DNA of 64,000 nucleotides from contig MU270027.1 of NCBI GenBank assembly GCA_021432635.1, positions 558,001 to 622,000 on the forward strand, read 5' to 3'. Position numbers and translations under genes: made by a program. The notes under the pieces are model-generated. The model was not told the origin of the DNA, made no database searches, and was given only the letters and a program-made list of their open reading frames with translations. This stretch comes from Thozetella sp. PMI_491 (lineage: Eukaryota > Ascomycota > Sordariomycetes > Chaetosphaeriales > Chaetosphaeriaceae). Of this stretch, positions 1 to 62,018 are shown one piece after another. Each line of letters starts with the position of its first letter. Position 1 is the first letter of the stretch.

Positions 1-742
1 AAACTTCATTATCCCGAGTATTTGGCCGTGATGGGGGGCTTAGCTGAAAACGGATCGAGCCCTGACGGGTCCCACGGCTTGTTGTCAGGTGGGCTAACAA
101 CCCAGCTCGGCTGAAGAACCCATTGTCAAACATGTCATGACGTGCGCCTACCACAGCAGGCGTGGAGAAAAGGGAGGCAAGTAAAGATCGAGCCGGACCC
201 GTAACCGAGCTACGGTACCGCTCAAGCCCGAACTACTGCAATTACACCTATTAGCTCCCGAGGCCTCTCGTCGCACTTGCGGGCCCCTAACCGAATTCGA
301 GCGGAGGGGAATAAAGATACTGACTGGAGCGAGTTAATGCTCTGGGTGTCACTAGTGGAGTGGGTTGGCCTCTCAAGGGTTGCTTCTCACGGTGAGAAAC
401 GACGGCTACAACATGGTTTTGAACCAGGATTCATGAATTGAAAACCCCAATGCGCGTGCTATACCCTATGTGCCAAACCCATTGCCAGTCCGTCTATCCA
501 AGAAGCTAATGAGACCTTCCGAGAGCAAGGAAATGAGAATGCCAACACCTATGCCAGGCAGCCCAGCCGTCATAGCCGACCGACCATATTGATACACATG
601 TGCATGCATGCACACGCTAGACCATAACGATCTGTCATGGTGAATTTGTTTTGATCTAAACCCTTGCCAGATGATCATCCGACATGGCACTCTATCGCGT
701 TTCGTCGTCAGGGAGGGGAAGTACGTAAAAGGCCTCCTTTTC
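1..742. other. intergenic, no gene seen
   Basis: No convincing coding region, RNA gene or repeat is visible here. A short open frame on the minus strand (466-759) runs into the last exon of the neighbouring VPS9-domain gene in another frame and shows no recognisable domain. Confidence 0.5.
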
Positions 743-3038
743 TTATTCCTTGAAGGCACCTATATCCTTCAGCGTGCCAGCCAGCCTTCTGTAGTCTTTT
801 AGCAGCTCCAGCACTTCGTTGAGCCTCAGTTCACCCGGGTTTTGTAGTTCCATGAACCGCCGGACTGGAGGATTGATCTTGGGTATCTCTTTAGGCGGAA
901 GGGATGCCGCAAGGTCAGGGAAAGCCTAGGACATCGTTAGGATCGAGGGAGGCAAAAAGTTGACAGATTAACGAGGGCCGCCTTACAGTAGCCAAGTCTC
1001 CCCCATCCGAGACACCACCCTTCGACACATCCTTCATGGTCGGTGCTGCCGGGGTCGACGTGGTTCGTCCAAAACCTCGGAAACCCCCAATGCCCGCGGA
1101 AAACCGCGCCATCGGGTTGATTGAGTTCCCAAAGTTGCGCACCGAATCGATGAGCGCAGGGTTTGACGATGAGCCTGCTGCTCCAGGCGCCGAAGCACCC
1201 TTTTCTTTTGCTTGTTCGTCCGAGGCGAACGCAGCCAGTTTCTTGCTGCTGCTCGCGCTACGCGAGCTGTCCGCGCTATGGTCTCTCGAGACCTTTCTCG
1301 CGCCGCCCATCAACGTAAGCAACCTGTCTTCCTTCGCAGCCGTCTTAGCGTTCTCCTCAGGGCTTTGGCCCGAACTGGCGCCGCTGGCTGACTCGCCATC
1401 ATCATCTACGGGTGGTGGGGTGCCGATGAGCTTGCGTGCATCATCGAGGGTCTTCGGCACCACAACCTCGTCGCTTGAATTGCTCGCTAATGGGTTCTGC
1501 TCCCGGAGGCGGCCGAGTAAGAAGTTGTAACTCTCCGTTAGGCTGTTGCCGATGTTCTTGAGGCCTTGGTCAGCCGTGGTGAAGACCGCATCACTGGCCG
1601 CGCCGATCGCCTGCGCGGGTGTGTTCACCAGATCGCTAAGCCGGCGGTTTCGCAGCTGCACGGCGGCACGGAGGCCATTGGGCGAGGGCGAGGGCTTGAT
1701 GCTCGCCCCAGCAACGGCGGCAAGTTCCGGAGTTGCCGGGGCGCCGAGACCAGGAGAATAGGCAGGCGGGAAGGTCTCTACTTTGGGAGAATTTGGCCCA
1801 CTGGAGGACTTGAGGGGCCCCGAGGGGGCTTCATCTGCCCTCAGGGTGGAGAGGTCGACAGTTTCGAGGAAGCTAATGGTCGCCTCTAGGTTGGTTAAGC
1901 AGTATGCTGCCTCGCCCACGAGCTTCGGCTCCCACCGGAATCTCTGTATGAAGTTGACATCGCTTATGACATTCAGATTGGTGGGGGGGAGCGTGATAAG
2001 TGTGTAAATCAACATGGGCATAAGCTCGTCCGCGGAGGAGGACGGGTGGAAGTGCGACAGAGTATCGATGATGCCCTTGTGCGCAGCCTTGAGATGGTTG
2101 AGTTTCCCGAGTGGGTATCTCGACTGGTTCATGAGGACGAGCTCCTTTCGGGCATTCTCGAGCCAGTTCTTCACCTCTTCCTTCCTGTCGGCCAACGCCT
2201 CAGGGGTGGCGGACTCGAGGCCCAGGTCGACCCCTAAGTCGGCCGGGCCAATGCCAACCACAGCAAGCGCGGCCGTCTTGGACCGCAGCTTGTCATCCTG
2301 CGCCTCGTCCTGGGTCGAGTGGTGGCGGTAGATCCTGTCGTATATGCCCTCGCAGAGCCTTCTCTCTACTGCCTCTTCGAGCAGACCTTTCTTCTGCTCC
2401 AGGGCCTTTCTCGCCCGCTTCCGATCCGCATACTCCTCAGCCGTGAGCATCTGCTGATCCGAGTCCTTCCGGACCGGGGCCGGCTTCGCCTTCTCCTTGC
2501 TGCTCAGCGACGCTGCCTTGGCCCTCAGCAGGCTAGCGGCCGAAGCGCGGGGCGAATTGGACGGCGCTGGAGAACCCTCTCGCCTCTGGCGTGTTGCTAG
2601 GCTGTCGACATGTGTCTGGATATGGTTTGCGGCCGTGGCATAAAACTCCTGGAACATCCGGGAGAGATTGTCAATGTTCGGCGGAGTGGGGTGGACTTTG
2701 GCAGAGAGGCCATCGATAAAGCTGTCGGCCAAGCCGATAAGCTCGATAGGGAGGTCCTCAAGATCAACGGAGGCACGCGGGGGCTCGGGTGCCTCCTCGC
2801 TGATTCGACTCTCGAAGGTATCGCGCTCGGGTTTCAAGGCAGACGCGGGTGCGGGAGCCACTGATCCGGCGCCATTCTGGATCGTGCTCGCCCGCTTAGG
2901 ACGGCTCGGTTCTGAGGAAGACACGGGGACGGTCTCTGGGCGAGAGAAGGAACGTGTGGACCGCAACGAGCTCGGGCGGGCGGACGTTTTGGAAGACGGG
3001 TTGGATGCCATGGGGCTGCGGCTCAAGCTAGCGAGCAT
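743..3038 (-). CDS. VPS9-domain guanine nucleotide exchange factor (MUK1-like)
   Basis: Predicted exchange factor for Rab5/Vps21-type GTPases in endosomal trafficking. Model: exon 989-3038, intron about 929-988 (GTAAGG to CTAG), last exon 743-928; about 730 residues. The Ser/Pro-rich N-terminus is probably disordered. The middle holds a VPS9 domain recognisable by DELMPMLIYTLITLPP followed by NVISDVNFIQRF. After a second low-complexity stretch the spliced C-terminus reads RRFMELQNPGELRLNEVLEL and ends LKDIGAFKE, which is coherent only after splicing. The start at 3038 has a good context (CCACCATGC). An in-frame ATG at 3011 is equally plausible, and one at 3203 would add an unlikely Leu-rich leader. 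The MUK1 assignment rests on a VPS9 domain lacking a CUE domain and is inference. Confidence 0.8.
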
Positions 3039-3470
3039 GGTGGTTAGCCGAGTTCGAGTTCGCCTCGCTTCGCACCAACGACGCGCCTCGGGGCAGACGT
3101 GTAGGGGAAGGGATGAGGGGAAGCTGTGAAGCAAAAGGAGGGCCCCTTTGGATTTCGGTGAGAGCGGGAAACCTACGTGTGCGGGAACGAGCAGAGGCAG
3201 CACAAGGATATGTACTCAACTGAGCTCGGTGTCGGTAGTGCATGAAGGACTAAGAAACTAATCAGGCCTTGAAACCATATATGGGGGTGGGAGGACTAGA
3301 GCCAGTGGAAGGGGCCAACACGGACAGCCAAATTATGCCACGGGCCTTAGGCGAGAAACAAATAAGCTCCGGGAGCCAACGCAACGCGGCCTCTGGAGAC
3401 TGGCAAACTGGGTCGACGTCTTTCCCGGGAGGGGCGGATCTCTCGGCGAGCAAAGACAGAGGACTCTCCA

Positions 3471-3500
3471 CGACTCGTCTCGACTCGACTCGACTCGACA
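3471..3500. repeat. (CGACT)n microsatellite
   Basis: Tandem CGACT units with one CGTCT variant, about 30 bp, within the divergent intergenic region. Confidence 0.8.
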
Positions 3501-19577: not shown

Positions 19578-20280
19578 CTAGTAGAAGAATCCGATGACCT
19601 TGCCAGCAACGTGCTTCCTACGAGCCTCCTCGTGGTCCATGATGCCAGCCGAGGTGGTAAGGATGACGTAGCCGAACTGACGGGCGGGAAGTAGCTTGAC
19701 AACCCACTTCTCGAGGTCGGCGAGGCGGACGTTGTATCGGGGGCTGATGACACCGATCTTGTTGATACTGCAAGCATTGTCAGCCTCCACCTCGGCATCC
19801 ATAGGCGAGTTCGACTGTAGAACTTACCGGCCGTTGAGCTGCACAACGATCTTGCCGGAGCGGTGATCATCGACCTCCTCGAACTCGCCAATGTAACCTA
19901 GGGTATGGGTCAGCAGATGTCGCGAAATTATAAACATGGAACGTCATAGGGTATTCCGAGCACGTGTAAGATTCCGCGTTGGATCTTTCGGCAACTTAAA
20001 GGGCTGTGGGCGTAGAAGCAGACAGAGACCAGAGCCTAGTTATCATGCCGATGTGTGGGTTCGTGTGAAATAGCGGCAGGCAGCGCCGGCGCCGCCAGGG
20101 GGGGGGGGGGGGGGAGGGGAAAGAAAGAGAGCCCAAAGGTAGCATACCGTGGCGCTGAGCGACCTGGAGGAACTTGACGATGACCTTGGAGCTAGGTCGG
20201 ATCAGGACCTGGCGCTTGCCGGCCTTCTCGGCGTTGTTGATGCTGTTAAGGGCATCGTGGAGGACTGAAGTGCGGACCAT
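19578..20280 (-). CDS. RPS22: 40S ribosomal protein uS8 (S22/S15a)
   Basis: Small-subunit ribosomal protein that binds the central domain of 18S rRNA. Exons 20148-20280, 19828-19897 and 19578-19767; 130 residues, exactly the eukaryotic length. Intron 1 (250 nt) carries a 17-base G run on the plus strand (20098-20114); intron 2 is 60 nt. The product begins [20 protein letters not shown] and includes [37 protein letters not shown] and the end GKVIGFFY. It is divergent from eS12 across a shared promoter region. Confidence 0.97.
20098..20114. repeat. G17 homopolymer
   Basis: Seventeen consecutive G (C17 in the transcript) inside the first intron of the uS8 gene, followed after an A by four more G. 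Such runs are prone to length errors. Confidence 0.8.
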
Positions 20281-26334: not shown

Positions 26335-28731
26335 TCATACTTTCTCAAGATGGCTGCCAGTTTCACCGAACATGCCCTCTTTAGCGGCCACATCGATGGC
26401 ATGCTCCTGGTTCTCTCGAGTAAGACCAACGTCACGGCGAGCCTCGGCTAGCAACTTGGCATCTTCCTCGCCTGTGCGGCTCTTGAACACGCGGTCCATC
26501 TCTTCGAGAGTTGCGCCTTTGGTTTCGGGAAGTGCGAACCAGACCCATACAATGCCACCGGCGAGAAAGACGGCGAAGAAGATGTAGGTGCCCCAGCCCC
26601 AAGCGGTGAACATTGGGGGAACGAAAAATGCCACGGCGAAGTTGTTGAGCTGTGGCCCATATGTTAGATTTGGGGATATGTTGGGGTCCAGTAGGTTCGT
26701 ACCCAATTGCTTGAGGCCCCGAAAGAGGCACCCTTTGCTCTGATAGATAGCGGAAAGATCTCAGCTACTAGAGTCCAAGAGGCAGGGCCCCATGTAGCCC
26801 CACTGAACATATCCAGGTCAGTAGTTGTTTGAAGCTGAAGGGGGAAGTTTTGACTCTGAAATACGTACAACGCGCCGACATATACCCATAGCAAGGCCAC
26901 ACAGACCCATCCCGCTGCCGAGTGCGAGCCCCAGTTGCCGCTGTACTGGGAGACCAAAACCCCAACAATAACCATAGAGACCAGCATCACAACGGACCCC
27001 ACAAGTAGCATGGGTTTTCGGCCGACCCTGTCGATGATTGCCATGGCCGGGAGAGTGCATACGAAGAACACAACTCCGGTGACACCAGTAGCGAGGAGGG
27101 CCGTGGTTCCTTCTGTGAGGCCGAGACTTGTAAATACTGAGGGAGCATAATAAATAATAGCATCAATTCCACTCTGCCCCAGTTGTTAGTTATTTTTCGG
27201 GATTTTTGCCTAGGTCTGGGTATTTTGTAGTTATGACATGCGAGTAGAACTTCTGCCAGGAGCTCATTCAGACATGTACCCGCTCCCAAGAGCCTGCAGA
27301 AGGGGGCAAAGTGCACGGGGAATTCTTACCCATTGCTAGTGAGAGAGTGTTAGAGTCTGGCTTCCAAATATTCGTAGCATGTTAGAGCGAGAATCAGGGT
27401 CTTACCTGGAAGAACATGACCAACCAAGCCGTCGCCACGCGCTTGAAATTGTCTAGCCATACCTAAGTGTCAGTAATTTCCTGGAATAGATGTTTATGTA
27501 ACTACCCGGAGCATGTCTCAAGAGTAGGGGCGCAAATACTCCCGATATTCGACGAAAATGGCAATAAAGAACACGGGAATACGGACCCCAAGTGCGCACG
27601 ATGTTGTAATACTGGGCACCCTCGCGGATCCACACGCTCCCCTGTTCTTTGACCGCGAGCTTGGGGAAGGCCTTGGCAAAGGCACGCTGCTCGAACAGGC
27701 ACTCGGCCTTGATCTCGAGGTACTCGACCTGGACTAGATCGTGCTCCTTGGGCAGCTTGCGTAGGTACGAGAGCGTCTTGAGAGCTTCCTCATCACGGCC
27801 CTGCTTGATCAGCCATCGGGGAGAGAATGGCAGCCACCAGATGCCGAGGGCCAGGAGCACAGCCGGAATCCCCTGAATTATCGACGGTATCTGCCATGCG
27901 AGGTTGGACTGATCTTCGCCGCTACCACCGATGTTGTTGCTCGCGTAACCAAACCAGAACGAGAGCATGATTCCTAAGATGGTGGCAAACTGGTAAAATG
28001 AGACGAGCAACCCGCGCAGCTCAGGTGCAGAGAGCTCAGCGTCTAGGCGTATCCAAGTGTTAGTAATGTCCTGGAATAGATGTTTATGTAGCTACCCGGA
28101 GCATGTCTCAAGACTAGGAGCGCAAATGCTCCCGATATTCGACGAAAATGGCAATAAAGAACACGGGAATACGGACTGTACAGCGGCCCAACACCAGAGA
28201 ACGTTCCCACCCCCAACCCGGTAAAGAACCTCCCAGCGTATAGCAAGCCCGGGTTGTGGTAGGTGGCACCGCAATATAGATAGCTACCCAGGATAACCCA
28301 ACAGCAGGCCGAAAACATGGTGTACTTCCTAGAGAATACCTCGCCGAATACACCGGCCGACACTGAGCCGAGGATGCCGCCGAGCTGGAGCACCGAGGTC
28401 AGCCAGCCGGTGGCGCTAGAAGACTCAACGACGGAGGGGAAGTTGTCTTTGAAGCGAGTCATGACCAGCGACTGGCCCAGGACGCCTTGCTGGTAGCCAT
28501 ATTCGAAGCCGCCGAAACTAAGGCATTGGTGTTAGCGACAGACGGCAGACAATAACGACCAGGACGAGACTGAAACAAGACGCAGTCCAGCGGGCAGAAA
28601 GAGCCGACTCACGATGCGAAGAGGGCGATAACAAGTAGCTTGGGGTTGTGCCACAGACTGTGCCAACGATTCTTGAAGGCAACCTTTGTGCGCTCGTCGG
28701 CGGCCGAGTAACCAACATCGTCAGAACTCAT
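26335..28731 (-). CDS. MFS sugar transporter
   Basis: Plasma-membrane sugar/H+ symporter-type transporter of the major facilitator superfamily. Eight exons: 28613-28731, 28177-28517, 27587-28042, 27406-27452, 27330-27335, 26869-27173, 26703-26802, 26335-26649; 562 residues, normal for the family. Motifs: FGGFEYGYQQGVLGQ, GRFFTGLGVGTFSGVGPLY joined to NAELSAPELRG, FSPRWL, FFQ-QW-SGIDAIIYY, DRVGRKP, the joined stretch GATWGPASW, and LPETKGATLEEMDRVF. Exon 5 is only 6 nt (CAATGG, Gln-Trp). Introns 2 (28043-28176) and 3 (27453-27586) are near-identical 134-nt copies of one repeat. The donor of the 66-nt intron after exon 6 was set at GTACGT because it restores YVGAFGATWGP. Substrate cannot be told from sequence. 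Confidence 0.9.
27330..27335 (-). other. 6-nt microexon of the sugar transporter
   Basis: The bases CAATGG on the minus strand are flanked by an acceptor (CACTAG) and a donor (GTAAGA). Their inclusion supplies Gln-Trp of the highly conserved FFQQWSGID motif; skipping would leave FFQSGID in frame. Flanking introns are 70 nt (27336-27405) and 156 nt (27174-27329). Confidence 0.85.
27453..27586 (-). mobile_element. introner-like element copy B (intron 3 of the sugar transporter)
   Basis: A 134-nt phase-1 intron from GTCCGT to GGCTAG, with a CTGAC branch-like site 13 nt before the acceptor. By hand alignment it differs from the copy at 28043-28176 at about 10 positions. Its removal joins IVRTW to DNFKRVATAWLVMFF, the expected transporter sequence. 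Inside are the hairpin arms GGAGTAT and ATGCTCC (one G-U pair). Confidence 0.8.
28043..28176 (-). mobile_element. introner-like element copy A (intron 2 of the sugar transporter)
   Basis: A 134-nt phase-1 intron from GTCCGT to GCCTAG with a perfect ACTAAC branch site. Removing it joins VGPLY to NAELSAPELRG. Internal arms GGAGCAT (28126-28132 as transcribed) and ATGCTCC (28098-28104) can pair over 7 bp. The exon sequences flanking copies A and B are unrelated, so the similarity is confined to the introns. Confidence 0.8.
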
Positions 28732-42047: not shown

Positions 42048-43187
42048 TTACTGCTCTTCAAGCCTCAGCACCTTGATCGCGTTACCTCCCATAACCTTGC
42101 CTGCGTCCTCGGTGCCTGCGCCGAGTGCTTTCTGCACAGACTCCGCATTTAGGGTTACGCTCTCCCACTCGCCCTCTTCGTCGCTCTCTAGTGGGGGGAA
42201 GAAGGGATGGTCCGTTCCAAACATCAGCCGGTCCGTTCCGCTCGCGTCTACTGCTGCCTTGAGCCCAACCTCGCTGTAGACCACGGCATCCAAGAAAACT
42301 TGTGTGCGCAGAACCTCCCATACCGTCCGCCTCTTGACGTCCTTGCCGGCACGGCCCTCCCGCACGAGGTGCCCGTCGTGTGCAATGCAGCTCTCGATTC
42401 GGCCGGCCAAGAATGGCAGCGTGCCACCGCTGTGCGCAAGGATCATCTGCAGCGAGGGCACGGCGTCGAATAGGCCGGCGAGATACATGCGCGTCACGGC
42501 AATGGTAGTCTCCATGGGGAATCCTAGGGCGAGCGGTAGTACGTGGCCATACTCGGCAGCCGCGCGTGGTCCCCAGACGGCGTTGGGGAGGCCGTAGTGC
42601 GGGTGGAGGAAGATGGTCAGGTCGGCCTCGCCCAGCGCCGTGAGGATGGGGAGCAGGGCAGGGTCGTCAAGGCCCTGGCCGAGGCCAGTGGTACCAAGGA
42701 TGACCCCTCGGCAGTGGGGGAGCGACTTAACGTAGGCGATGGCCGACAAGATGGTATCCAGAGGCGCCGTGAGGGGCAGGGCGGCGAAGAAGAACAGACG
42801 GCCCGGGTGCTCGGCACACATGGCCTCGAACTCGGCGTTGATGGACTCGGAGACAGGGCCGGACTCGGAGGCGCCTAGAAAGTCGAGCCAAGGGTTGGCG
42901 AGGCTGATGACGCTGATGTCAATGCTATGTGTGTCCATAAAGTGCAGCTTCTGGGCCAGCGAGGAGTAATGTCGGGTCAGCGGCCGGCCGGGCACAGGGG
43001 CCGAGGCATCTTGTTCGGCGGCAGCGATCGAGGGCACCTCAGCCTCCAGGAGGATGAGCCTCGGGTCCGTTGCGCCGGGGAAGCTGCGCACGATGGGGAT
43101 GGTTCCGCGGGACTCGAGAATCTTGACATAAGAAGGGGGGTACATGTGGGTGTGGATGTCCACGATCTTGGCCTTCGGCGCCGCCAT
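42048..43187 (-). CDS. ACMSD-like metal-dependent amidohydrolase/decarboxylase
   Basis: Amidohydrolase-2 family enzyme resembling 2-amino-3-carboxymuconate-6-semialdehyde decarboxylase and related gamma-resorcylate-type decarboxylases. Single exon, 379 residues. Metal-site and active-site marks: DIHTHMYPPSY at the N-terminus (HxH), HPHYGLP in the middle, ILAHSGGTLPFL and FGTDHPFFPP near the end. The start at 43187 lies nine codons before the HxH motif; the frame is open 231 nt further upstream but reads as low-complexity leader. It is divergent from a 2OG-Fe(II) dioxygenase 584 bp away. Whether the substrate is ACMS (kynurenine pathway) or an aromatic acid cannot be told from sequence. Confidence 0.88.
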   Translation of the reverse strand: MAAPKAKIVDIHTHMYPPSYVKILESRGTIPIVRSFPGATDPRLILLEAEVPSIAAAEQDASAPVPGRPLTRHYSSLAQKLHFMDTHSIDISVISLANPWLDFLGASESGPVSESINAEFEAMCAEHPGRLFFFAALPLTAPLDTILSAIAYVKSLPHCRGVILGTTGLGQGLDDPALLPILTALGEADLTIFLHPHYGLPNAVWGPRAAAEYGHVLPLALGFPMETTIAVTRMYLAGLFDAVPSLQMILAHSGGTLPFLAGRIESCIAHDGHLVREGRAGKDVKRRTVWEVLRTQVFLDAVVYSEVGLKAAVDASGTDRLMFGTDHPFFPPLESDEEGEWESVTLNAESVQKALGAGTEDAGKVMGGNAIKVLRLEEQ

Positions 43188-43771
43188 GTTGGTGGTGTGT
43201 CGGTCGTTTGAGCGGTCCGGGGCGGGGTGTCTCGTGTCTTGTCGTCTTGCCTCGTCGAAACTCCGGAGGCACGGGAAAGGAGGTGTCAACACCGGATCGG
43301 AAGGGGCCGATTCACTTACACGAAAGGCAGGTACGGTTTTTGCGACGGCCTGCCTCCTCTGTGACCCCGCCATTATCTCCCCTCCCCCTCCTCTCTCCCT
43401 CTGGGCCCCCTCCCCCACCTTGCGTTATCTCTAGTCTAGCTTATCAGCAAATACCGAGCAAATGCCCAGAGACCACAGAGCCCCCTCGCCCAAGGTTCTA
43501 GGTAATCGCTGTATCCTTGTTAGGTAATGCCTTTCATGTGAGTTCCTTCCCAATGCGATCGACCGACCGATCGATTGGCGGGGCCCGGAGCTGCCCGAGA
43601 TACGACCCCGTTTGCTCGTGACATTTTAATCTCACACAACTATTCCAGTCGTGTCACTCCTTTTGTTCCCTCAAAACTCCTTCTGTGCTAGTCCTCCCGG
43701 TCGTAGAAACATTATACTCGCCTGTCCCGCCCGCACACTCTTTGAGAGTTGAGCGCTCCGCACCACTCGAG
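43188..43771. promoter_or_regulatory. divergent promoter, ACMSD-like enzyme / 2OG dioxygenase
   Basis: 584 bp between divergent start codons. It contains a palindromic GATCGACCGACCGATCGAT-like patch around 43558-43576. No gene seen. Confidence 0.5.
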
Positions 43772-58704: not shown

Positions 58705-60233
58705 ATGGATGCCGATGAGAAATGTAGGTCGAAATTCTCCCTGTACCCCGTCCGACAGGTTCGCATCGCTAACTGGCAAAACCCCCAGGGATGAAGGACT
58801 CCAACGAGGCCCTGGAGTTCTCCCTCGTACTTCCTGGAGCGAACGGCCCAAAGACTGTTGCGAAGTTCCACCCGGGATTCACATACTCTATTTTTGGCGA
58901 CTCGGAGAAGATTTTCGGGTACCAAGATCTCAAGATTAGCCTTGCCTACAATGCGACCGATATGCGGCCAAATCTGGCCATCCACTATAGCAAGAAGTTC
59001 AAGCCGGTAGGCGAGACCGAAGCACTCGAAGTGCCCGAGGTGCTAAAGCAGTACCTGCCTGAAAGTTCGCTTTTTGCCCTTGCATCACAAACAGACCAAA
59101 TGTACTGACAAGTCGCAGTCGCATTCCAGAAGAAGGCCGAATTCGACGACGCCGTGGCGGCGGTCGCAGCCAGCTGGACACCTCCAGGCCACTTGGTATC
59201 ATCGTTCGAGATTAAACAGGGTGCTACCCGAAGCGCATATGAGGTCTGGAAGGGTAGCCTGGAGGACCCGGCAGTCAAGCAGATGATGAATCGCATTCAG
59301 ATATTTGTACCTTGCTTTATCGAAGGCGGAACTCTGATCGAGGACCAAGGCGACGGCGATCGATGGACTGTCTTCTTTCTGTACGAGAGACAGACGATCA
59401 CCGACCAGCAGGATCCTACCTACATCTTCGCAGGCTACTCGACGGTGTATCGCTTCTTCCTCTACAACAAACACAAGCAGCCGACCACCGTCTCAGAGGA
59501 TATCGACCTAAGCGCCGACTTTGACCTCGCCGAACTTCCGTGCAGAACCCGCATTTCGCAGTTCATCATCCTGCCTCCCTTCCAAGGCAAGGGACTCGGT
59601 TCCCTTTTCTACAGCACCTTGTTCAATGAGTACCTCAATCACCCTCAGACGGTGGAGATCACTGTGGAAGATCCCAACGAAGCATTTGATGATCTTCGCG
59701 ACGTGACAGATCTGAAGTACCTGCGCCAGATTCCCGAATTCACCGCCATCACGCTCAATGCCGCTGCCAAGGTCAAAGATGGCATCGTGCCGAACGACAT
59801 TATCGACGCCGAAGCGACTGAGGAGCTCCGCCGCAAGGTCAAAATTGCTCCCAGGCAGTTTGCTCGAGTCCTTGAGATGCACCTCATGTCGAAGCTTCCC
59901 GATCCCGTGCGGCCCAACTTCACTGTCGAGAAGCCGCTTGCCAAGGCGACGAAGGAACAACAGCGCGAGCTCGAACTATGGCGACTGCTCGTCAAGGCGA
60001 GGGTATATCGCCGGAATAAGGATGCCCTTGGCCAGCTCGTGCTCGGTGAGCGTATCGCCAAGCTGGAGGAGACCGTGTTGGCCGTTGAGTTTGACTATGC
60101 CCGACTTCTCAGCAAGGCGGATGCCCGCTCAAGCAACGAAAGTTCCGTGACCGGCGGCAAGCGGAAACTGGCTGAAGCGGGGCTTGAAGGAGGTGTCACT
60201 GCGAGCAAGAAAGCACGTGCTGAGGATGCATAA
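58705..60233 (+). CDS. HAT1: HAT1, type B histone acetyltransferase catalytic subunit
   Basis: Acetylates newly made histone H4 (Lys5/Lys12) before chromatin assembly. Exons 58705-58723, 58789-59064 and 59119-60233; 469 residues. Introns are 65 nt (phase 1) and 54 nt (phase 1, GTTCGC to GCAG). The spliced start reads MDADEKWMKDSNEALEFSLV. Core motifs: FGYQDLKISLAY, FVPCFIEGG, WTVFFLYERQ, and the acetyl-CoA site LPPFQGKGLGSLFY, followed by EDPNEAFDDLRDVTDL. The C-terminus is Lys/Ala/Ser-rich. Confidence 0.95.
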
Positions 60234-60730: not shown

Positions 60731-62018
60731 CTACTCAAAGTGTGTGTTTCTAAGAAACCGGGTGCCATTCACGCCTTGTGCCTGCGCACCTTGTCCGAGC
60801 TGGCTGGCTACGACCGTAGCCTCCCGAACGGCACGAGCCACGGTGCCGCGGACGCGGCCTTCCTCGAGAACGAGCAACCCGCCTATGGTGCAACCCCCGG
60901 GCGTGGCGACTTTGTCCCGGAGCACGGCTGGGTGCTCACCGTTCAGGACCATCCCAGCAGCGCCTCGCATAGTCTGCGCGGCCATTCTTGTCGCCTCGGC
61001 GCGAGGGAGGCCCATTGCTACAGCGCCGTCGATGGCGGCCTCGAGCATCAGTGAGAAGAAGGCCGGGCCAGCGCCGCACAGCGCCGTGCTGGCATCCATG
61101 TCCGCGGCCGGGAGATAGACAACCTCGCCAATGCGCTTGAAGATCCATGTCACGAGGCTGGCTGTCTCGACTGGCAAGGGCGGCTCGGAGCTAGCAACGA
61201 CAGTCATGGACTGCCGGATGATGCTGGCGGTGTTAGGGAGAGCGCGAACAATGCGGCAGCGCCCGTCGACCTCTGGGTCGTGCGCGGGCACGGCACCGTG
61301 CAGGATGATCTCGATCTCAGGTACTGTCACGCCGGCGCAGATGCTGATCAAGAGCTTGCCGTGGAGTGCCTTGCTCATGCCCGGCTCACTGAGGAGTTCT
61401 TTGACCACGGTGGGCTTGCACGCGAGGATGATGACATCGGCGACGGCCGCGGCCGCGACGTTGTCGTTCTGGACGACCTTGACAAGAGACGAGTGCTCCC
61501 ACAGCGCGGCCTTGACCTTCTTGGCGCTCTCCGGGCGCCTCACGCAGGCAAGGAAGCGGGAAGGGAGGCGGGCGGGCATCTGCTCCGGTGGAGTAGATAT
61601 GCCCGAAGGAGTCTGAAGAGGTCTAGGGGCCTGGAGATCCTGAAGGGAGCTAAGGATGCCGGAGAGAATGGCAATGCCCATCGTTCCTGTGCTAGGTGAG
61701 CCAACGGACCGCTACAGGGGAGAAAGGGGGGAGAAAGGGCCAGTCCCCCTTGGTAGGCAAGATGCCACTGGGCACCGGTTTCACTCACCACATCCCAAGA
61801 ATGCCATAGTGAGCTCGTTCGAGTCCCCATTGGCACTCCCATGGACGCTCCCGTTGAGCGAGAAAGTAGAGTTGACTCGCATCTGCCGGTACCCGAGTGT
61901 TAGTTATTTCCTAGAATGTATGTTTCTGCAACTACTCGGGGCATTTCTCGAAAACAGGGGCTTAAATGCTCTGATATCCGATGAAAATGGTTATAAGAAT
62001 ACGAGAAAGACAAACCAT
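60731..62018 (-). CDS. PRO3: pyrroline-5-carboxylate reductase
   Basis: Last step of proline synthesis: reduces pyrroline-5-carboxylate with NAD(P)H. Exons 62016-62018 (ATG alone), 61789-61882 and 60731-61686; 350 residues. The second exon also begins with ATG, so translation from 61882 is equally possible and the first exon may be leader. Intron 2 (102 nt, GTGAGT to CACAG, phase 1) restores the Rossmann motif FLGCGTMGIAILSGIL. Further marks: ACKPTVV, RALPNTAS, LCGAGPAFFSLMLEAAIDGA, and ATPGGCTIGGLLVLEEG near the end. A Pro/Thr insert (about 20 residues) follows the first helix. Intron 1 (61883-62015) belongs to the repeat family also found in the sugar transporter. Confidence 0.9.
61883..62015 (-). 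mobile_element. introner-like element copy C (intron at the start codon of P5C reductase)
   Basis: A 133-nt intron from GTTTGT to CGGCAG with a perfect ACTAAC branch site at the same distance from the acceptor as in copies A and B. By hand alignment about 40 of 134 positions differ from copy A, with one gap; the longest shared block is CCATTTTC plus ATCGGATATC-like sequence and the branch region. The hairpin arms are kept as GCATTT and AAATGC. It lies between two ATG codons. Confidence 0.7.

Follow-up and report, generated by a model that had tools for sequence, protein, structure and literature searches.

How eukaryotic genes acquire new introns has long been a question, and a known but uncommon way is through introners. 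Van der Burgt in 2012 reportedly described introner-like elements in Dothideomycetes. The DNA studied here raises this question within a single gene, since two introns of a sugar transporter have almost the same sequence, and it is necessary to explain how this likeness arose. We analyzed the whole stretch of 64,000 bases (the window; G+C 57.6%), in which the gene and its two similar introns, copies A and B, are placed as follows.

26335-28731, minus strand: gene for a sugar transporter (Sugar_tr, PF00083) that carries copies A and B; hand gene model, with the Pfam domain on the reading frame at 27453-28091
28043-28176, minus strand: copy A, transporter intron 2; 134 nt, phase 1, GTCCGT...CTAAC...CTAG; gene model and nhmmer
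27453-27586, minus strand: copy B, transporter intron 3; 134 nt, phase 1, GTCCGT...CTGAC...CTAG; gene model and nhmmer (model positions 1-134)

According to the hand gene model, the transporter runs from 28731 to 26335 in 8 coding exons and encodes 562 aa, and residues 34-515 of the spliced protein could be matched to solved sugar transporters. An earlier note on this DNA had placed two introns at 27453-28176 that were both 134 nt long and in phase 1, shared their first 48 bases and showed about 10 differences by hand alignment, with unrelated exons around them. These coordinates hold, with the gene on the minus strand, and the description was confirmed by the gene model and the alignment: bases 1-48 show no difference between A and B, and exactly 10 of the 134 columns differ (49, 58, 63, 86, 109, 116, 123, 125, 128 and 130; 92.5% identity). 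The 30-nt exon flanks are identical at 8/30 bases upstream and 7/30 downstream, which is close to chance, and the dinucleotide AC directly follows both copies on the 3' side. The same gene also contains a microexon of 6 bases (CAATGG, codons for Gln-Trp; 27330-27335, minus strand) between introns 4 and 5; when it is included, the transporter reads FFQQWSGID and aligns to solved transporters without a gap.

A genome holding no further copies, the outcome that the earlier note had set against an introner-like reading, is contradicted by a third copy in the window.

61883-62015, minus strand: third copy, intron 1 of the pyrroline-5-carboxylate (P5C) reductase gene; 133 nt, GTTTGT...CTAAC...CAG; self-BLAST, nhmmer (model positions 1-134) and gene model
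60731-62018, minus strand: P5C reductase gene, which encodes 350 aa and carries the third copy; hand gene model

Self-BLAST of the whole window (E<=0.05, low-complexity filter on) gave E values of 6e-47 for the A/B pair, 2e-16 for the reductase copy against B and 6e-16 against A, with no matches in the 64 kb apart from the three intron copies. The window was also searched by nhmmer with a sequence profile made from these same three copies; all three span model positions 1-134 (E 3.3e-44 for copy A), and no stretch of the 64 kb beyond them scored better than E 0.64. In addition, a core pattern derived from the three copies was found three times in the window and in 0 of 100 shuffles. Full alignment of the reductase copy with A and B gave 69-70% identity. 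It is located ~34 kb from the transporter pair, in a gene whose identity is indicated by residues 110-335, which match solved P5C reductases; the two host proteins are unrelated, having matched different solved proteins. Three of the nine introns modeled across the two host genes belong to the family, and reductase intron 2 (61687-61788) is outside it.

For copy A, protein evidence of a predicted intron is good. Its removal restores PLYNAELSAPELRG in a gap-free alignment to a solved sugar transporter, and likewise gives GPLYNAELSAPELRG, with no gap against TPVYLSEMAPAKIRG in sugar transport protein 10, which we take to be a plant protein. Without copy B, NIVRTW is followed in frame by DNFKRV; the protein alignment at this junction is weaker than that at A, with a one-residue gap nearby. 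Branch-site-like motifs are present near the 3' ends of A (CTAAC), B (CTGAC) and the reductase copy (CTAAC). Each of the three copies, if it stayed in the mRNA, would introduce a stop codon in frame. A and B are open in the phase-1 frame of their host as far as the TAG of their own acceptor, so that translation of an unspliced A or B would continue for ~44 residues and terminate there, and a retained reductase copy would lead to a stop after 18 codons. The reductase copy is regarded as a putative intron on account of its splice signals, its homology to A and B and this stop, because the start of the protein lies outside the matched stretch. An ATG is found on either side of it (62016-62018 and 61880-61882, minus strand); thus, it would interrupt the coding sequence after codon 1, in phase 0, or, with the second ATG as the start, it would lie in the 5' UTR. 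With regard to base composition, introners are described as G+C-poorer than exons (PMC9860276), and the three copies agree with this description (41-46% G+C, vs 56% and 63% for the two host coding sequences), although the six other introns of the two host genes span 42-62%.

A survey of introners, comprising 27,563 introns in 175 genomes, recognizes them by all-against-all blast at E<=1e-5, similarity to both intron ends and hosts that are not paralogous (PMC9860276). All three self-BLAST values given above are within that E value. The likeness among the three copies reaches both intron boundaries and stops at the splice sites, with 6-8/30 bases agreeing in the six flank comparisons and no run-on into the exons except for the AC after A and B. 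The sugar transporter and the reductase are not paralogs, and A and B, which share a gene, have unrelated flanking exons. Only families with four or more introns were retained in that survey, and the 64 kb studied here contain three copies; elsewhere, a comparable rule has been applied to groups with a minimum of two (PMC12768974). All three copies are in sense orientation to their host genes. The intron family is not a product of chance, is dispersed over unrelated genes and extends beyond local duplication or conversion. We consider it highly probable that the three introns represent one introner-like element, that is, a spliceosomal intron of ~134 nt, complete with donor, branch site and acceptor, which multiplies into new exon sites and is spliced out there. 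The earlier note had proposed an introner-like origin from the transporter pair; this proposal is supported, and the third, end-to-end copy strengthens it, since the presence of a relative in an unrelated gene at a distance of 34 kb makes the copies resemble a small mobile intron.

It was also considered that the transporter pair might have been made within its gene, by tandem duplication or by gene conversion from intron to intron, with no mobile element. A and B are indeed in one gene, only 456 bp apart, with an identical 5' run of 48 bases, and are much more like each other (92.5%) than like the reductase copy (~70%). However, such an origin does not account for the third copy in an unrelated gene. 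Moreover, A and B are flanked by unrelated exons, which shows that duplication of an intron did not include an exon, and changes are found in both copies. Thus, an origin within the gene appears unlikely. When the differences between A and B were polarized by using the reductase copy as an outgroup, five had changed in A and four in B, and one was ambiguous, which means that the two copies have been altered by similar amounts since their common source. That source is much more recent than the one that either of them shares with the reductase copy. The gene conversion between A and B that the earlier note had suggested is not needed, because the changes fall in both copies; conversion of the 5' part may still have taken place, since an identical run of 48 bases is somewhat unusual (P 0.009 when only that end is considered and 0.10 for a run anywhere). 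If the introner-like element is the correct explanation, the closeness of A and B could have come from one transporter intron re-entering the same gene or transcript. The recent gain proposed in the earlier note is plausible.

With regard to the mechanism, copying probably occurred via spliced intron RNA, because the copies begin and end at splice sites and have no common target-site duplication. The excised intron RNA would be reverse spliced into transcribed DNA or, alternatively, it might be ligated into a DNA break and then copied into DNA. In published models, spliced intron RNA returns to the DNA through reverse splicing or in the course of break repair (PMC8469720), and the features of the three copies agree with such reinsertion as described there. 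A different possibility is a non-autonomous DNA transposon, that is, a MITE-like introner whose insertion duplicates the target site, in the way suggested for certain introners of algae. The algal elements likewise create new introns from a repeated element, and they are described as having target-site duplications and/or terminal inverted repeats (PMC9860276), none of which is common to the three copies here. The ATG that flanks the reductase copy at either end possibly represents a 3-bp duplication produced by insertion, or else a start-codon intron giving Met-Met. No target-site duplication common to the three sites was found, this ATG being the only repeat and confined to the reductase site, whereas the contexts of A (TACA|ACGC) and B (TGGG|ACAA) contain no duplication. 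In addition, the ends are splice sites in all three copies.

Inverted repeats were examined by two local tests, one global test and five further scorings. Local alignment of the two halves gave no significant inverted repeat in any copy, with 249 (A), 272 (B) and 343 (reductase copy) of 1000 shuffles being as good, and the same was true of the terminal 40 bases (57, 206 and 875 of 1000, respectively). Two further local scorings also found no inverted repeat beyond the level of shuffles, at least 46 of 1000 being as good for all ten sequences (the copies, their consensus and six ordinary introns). We then compared the 5' half with the reverse complement of the 3' half over the whole length under three global scorings, each with 1000 shuffles. 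The shuffles that were as good numbered 5, 14 and 0 for copy A and 0, 21 and 0 for the majority consensus, whereas copy B had 97, 231 and 26 and the reductase copy had 512, 411 and 237; for the six ordinary introns of the host genes there were at least 68 each time. An earlier run of one global scoring had given 9 (A), 98 (B), 459 (reductase copy) and 0 (consensus). Thus, the global tests favor whole-length inverted symmetry in copy A and the consensus, weakly or not at all in B and not in the reductase copy, and this symmetry should be considered no more than suggestive because many tests were run. A decayed symmetrical ancestor of the three copies is possible. Although this symmetry and the ATG pair would suit a MITE-like element, the local tests, the sites of A and B and the coincidence of all ends with splice sites argue against it, and we regard such a transposon as very unlikely.

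The similarity also covers the interior of the introns, as might be expected if otherwise ordinary introns carried a conserved element that is regulatory or acts as RNA, such as an intronic snoRNA. However, no Rfam family reached the gathering threshold for any copy, and the likeness is not limited to an internal core but continues as far as the splice sites. The predicted RNA folds of the copies were no more stable than those of shuffled sequences (z of -0.46 for A, -0.59 for B and -0.25 for the reductase copy), and neither was that of the consensus (z -0.94; 39 of 200 shuffles as good). For the predicted consensus structure, the share of paired cells was reached by 80 of 500 shuffles and four other measures by 227 of 500 each. 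In this structure 92% of the cells are paired, vs 22-51% when it is slid by 1-3 columns; this excess is expected because the structure was derived from these very sequences. As the structure did not rise above shuffles, a sequence profile was used in place of a covariance model. On the basis of these results, a conserved element within ordinary introns is exceedingly improbable, and the introner-like element is retained as the explanation of the family.

Introner-like elements of Dothideomycetes have been described in Fulvia, Dothistroma and Zymoseptoria (PMC4457414), and some fungal genes are known to contain a pair of such introns (PMC4457414; PMC8469720). The Dothideomycete elements are described as having seamless insertion and a stable predicted secondary structure (PMC8469720), and accounts of fungal introner-like elements stress internal symmetry or stable hairpins (PMC8469720; PMC9024468). 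Compared by description only, the three copies resemble the Dothideomycete elements in being near-identical spliceosomal introns that are found in unrelated genes, sometimes two per gene, and are inserted seamlessly. They differ in having no stable fold, a trait whose value for defining a family is debatable, and their host may be a Sordariomycete. Ascomycete introners are also described as having neither target-site duplications nor inverted repeats (PMC9860276), with which the three copies agree in that they show no shared target-site duplication and no significant local inverted repeat.

A second group for comparison is the sister introns of Hypoxylaceae (PMC9024468), which, like the present copies, belong to an ascomycete, are seamless, lack a target-site duplication, lie on the coding strand and sometimes occur twice in a gene. 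The lengths differ, being 133-134 nt here vs 93 nt (the cropped HCOc096A and HECc034A) or 207 nt (the stwintron HCOc066A) in Hypoxylaceae (PMC9024468). In the type-2 cropped sister introns, terminal inverted repeats of 45-55 nt are described as meeting at a palindrome in the center, TTTCTAGAAA (PMC9024468). Inverted repeats of this type were not detected in the three copies by the local half-vs-half tests, and the internal symmetry for which the sister introns are known (PMC9024468) is here suggestive for copy A and the consensus. For the Hypoxylaceae palindrome, WTTCTAGAAA, the best match had three mismatches in A, two in B and one in the reductase copy. The last of these, TTTCGAGAAA, is found at position 63 of the reductase copy (61944-61953, minus strand), near the intron center, and a match as good was present in 0.8% of 5000 random stretches of 133 bases from the window. 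We consider it a lead toward a link with the Hypoxylaceae sister introns.

Public collections were also searched with patterns from the family. A 16-base core pattern was found in 47 stretches of viral contigs; checked by nhmmer, none was a real copy (best E 0.15), and these stretches were therefore taken as chance. A 22-base 3' pattern had no occurrence in the viral contigs, nor did a longer core pattern in the prokaryote contigs. Such blanks say little, because the collections consist of viral and prokaryote sequence. Considering only the reductase copy, which is independent of the choice of region (1 per 64 kb), the number of copies was estimated at ~16 to 3,500 (95% Poisson) per assumed genome of 40 Mb, a rough figure from a single count. 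Gene models were made for the two host genes only, and the Pfam scan covered 20 of the 151 listed reading frames. Additional features were identified in the window.

59109-60233: HAT1_C_fung, a fungal-specific Pfam domain; Pfam scan
42048-43424, minus strand: isoorotate (uracil-5-carboxylate) decarboxylase-like gene; E 1.8e-182 to solved fungal enzymes
19915-20053, minus strand: snR44 (H/ACA snoRNA), Rfam; 33.3 bits vs a gathering score of 33, barely at threshold

One of the solved enzymes matched by the isoorotate decarboxylase-like protein is that of Cordyceps militaris, and the best-matching one is presumably from Metarhizium. A Paf1 stretch of 30 residues in the window matches entry 6af0, whose host we take to be Myceliophthora. 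By its gene structure and Pfam content, the window is eukaryotic and fungal, and the decarboxylase and Paf1 matches point softly to a Sordariomycete host; searches with the helicase, pyruvate-dehydrogenase and kinase gave no further indication.

To our knowledge, introners are the sole route by which many new introns are gained quickly. If the host of the present family is a Sordariomycete outside Hypoxylaceae, introners would have a wider fungal range than the literature describes. It is possible, if somewhat doubtful, that the three copies belong to an undescribed introner family of such a Sordariomycete, which arose from a symmetrical intron that has since decayed and which spreads both within a gene and between genes. 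If true, this would link the two described groups of fungal introners, and source and daughter introns could be found within one transcript. As the copies show ~70% and 92.5% identity and a pair of them shares a gene, the host genome and its relatives would directly reveal how old such new introns are, together with their polarity and insertion preference.
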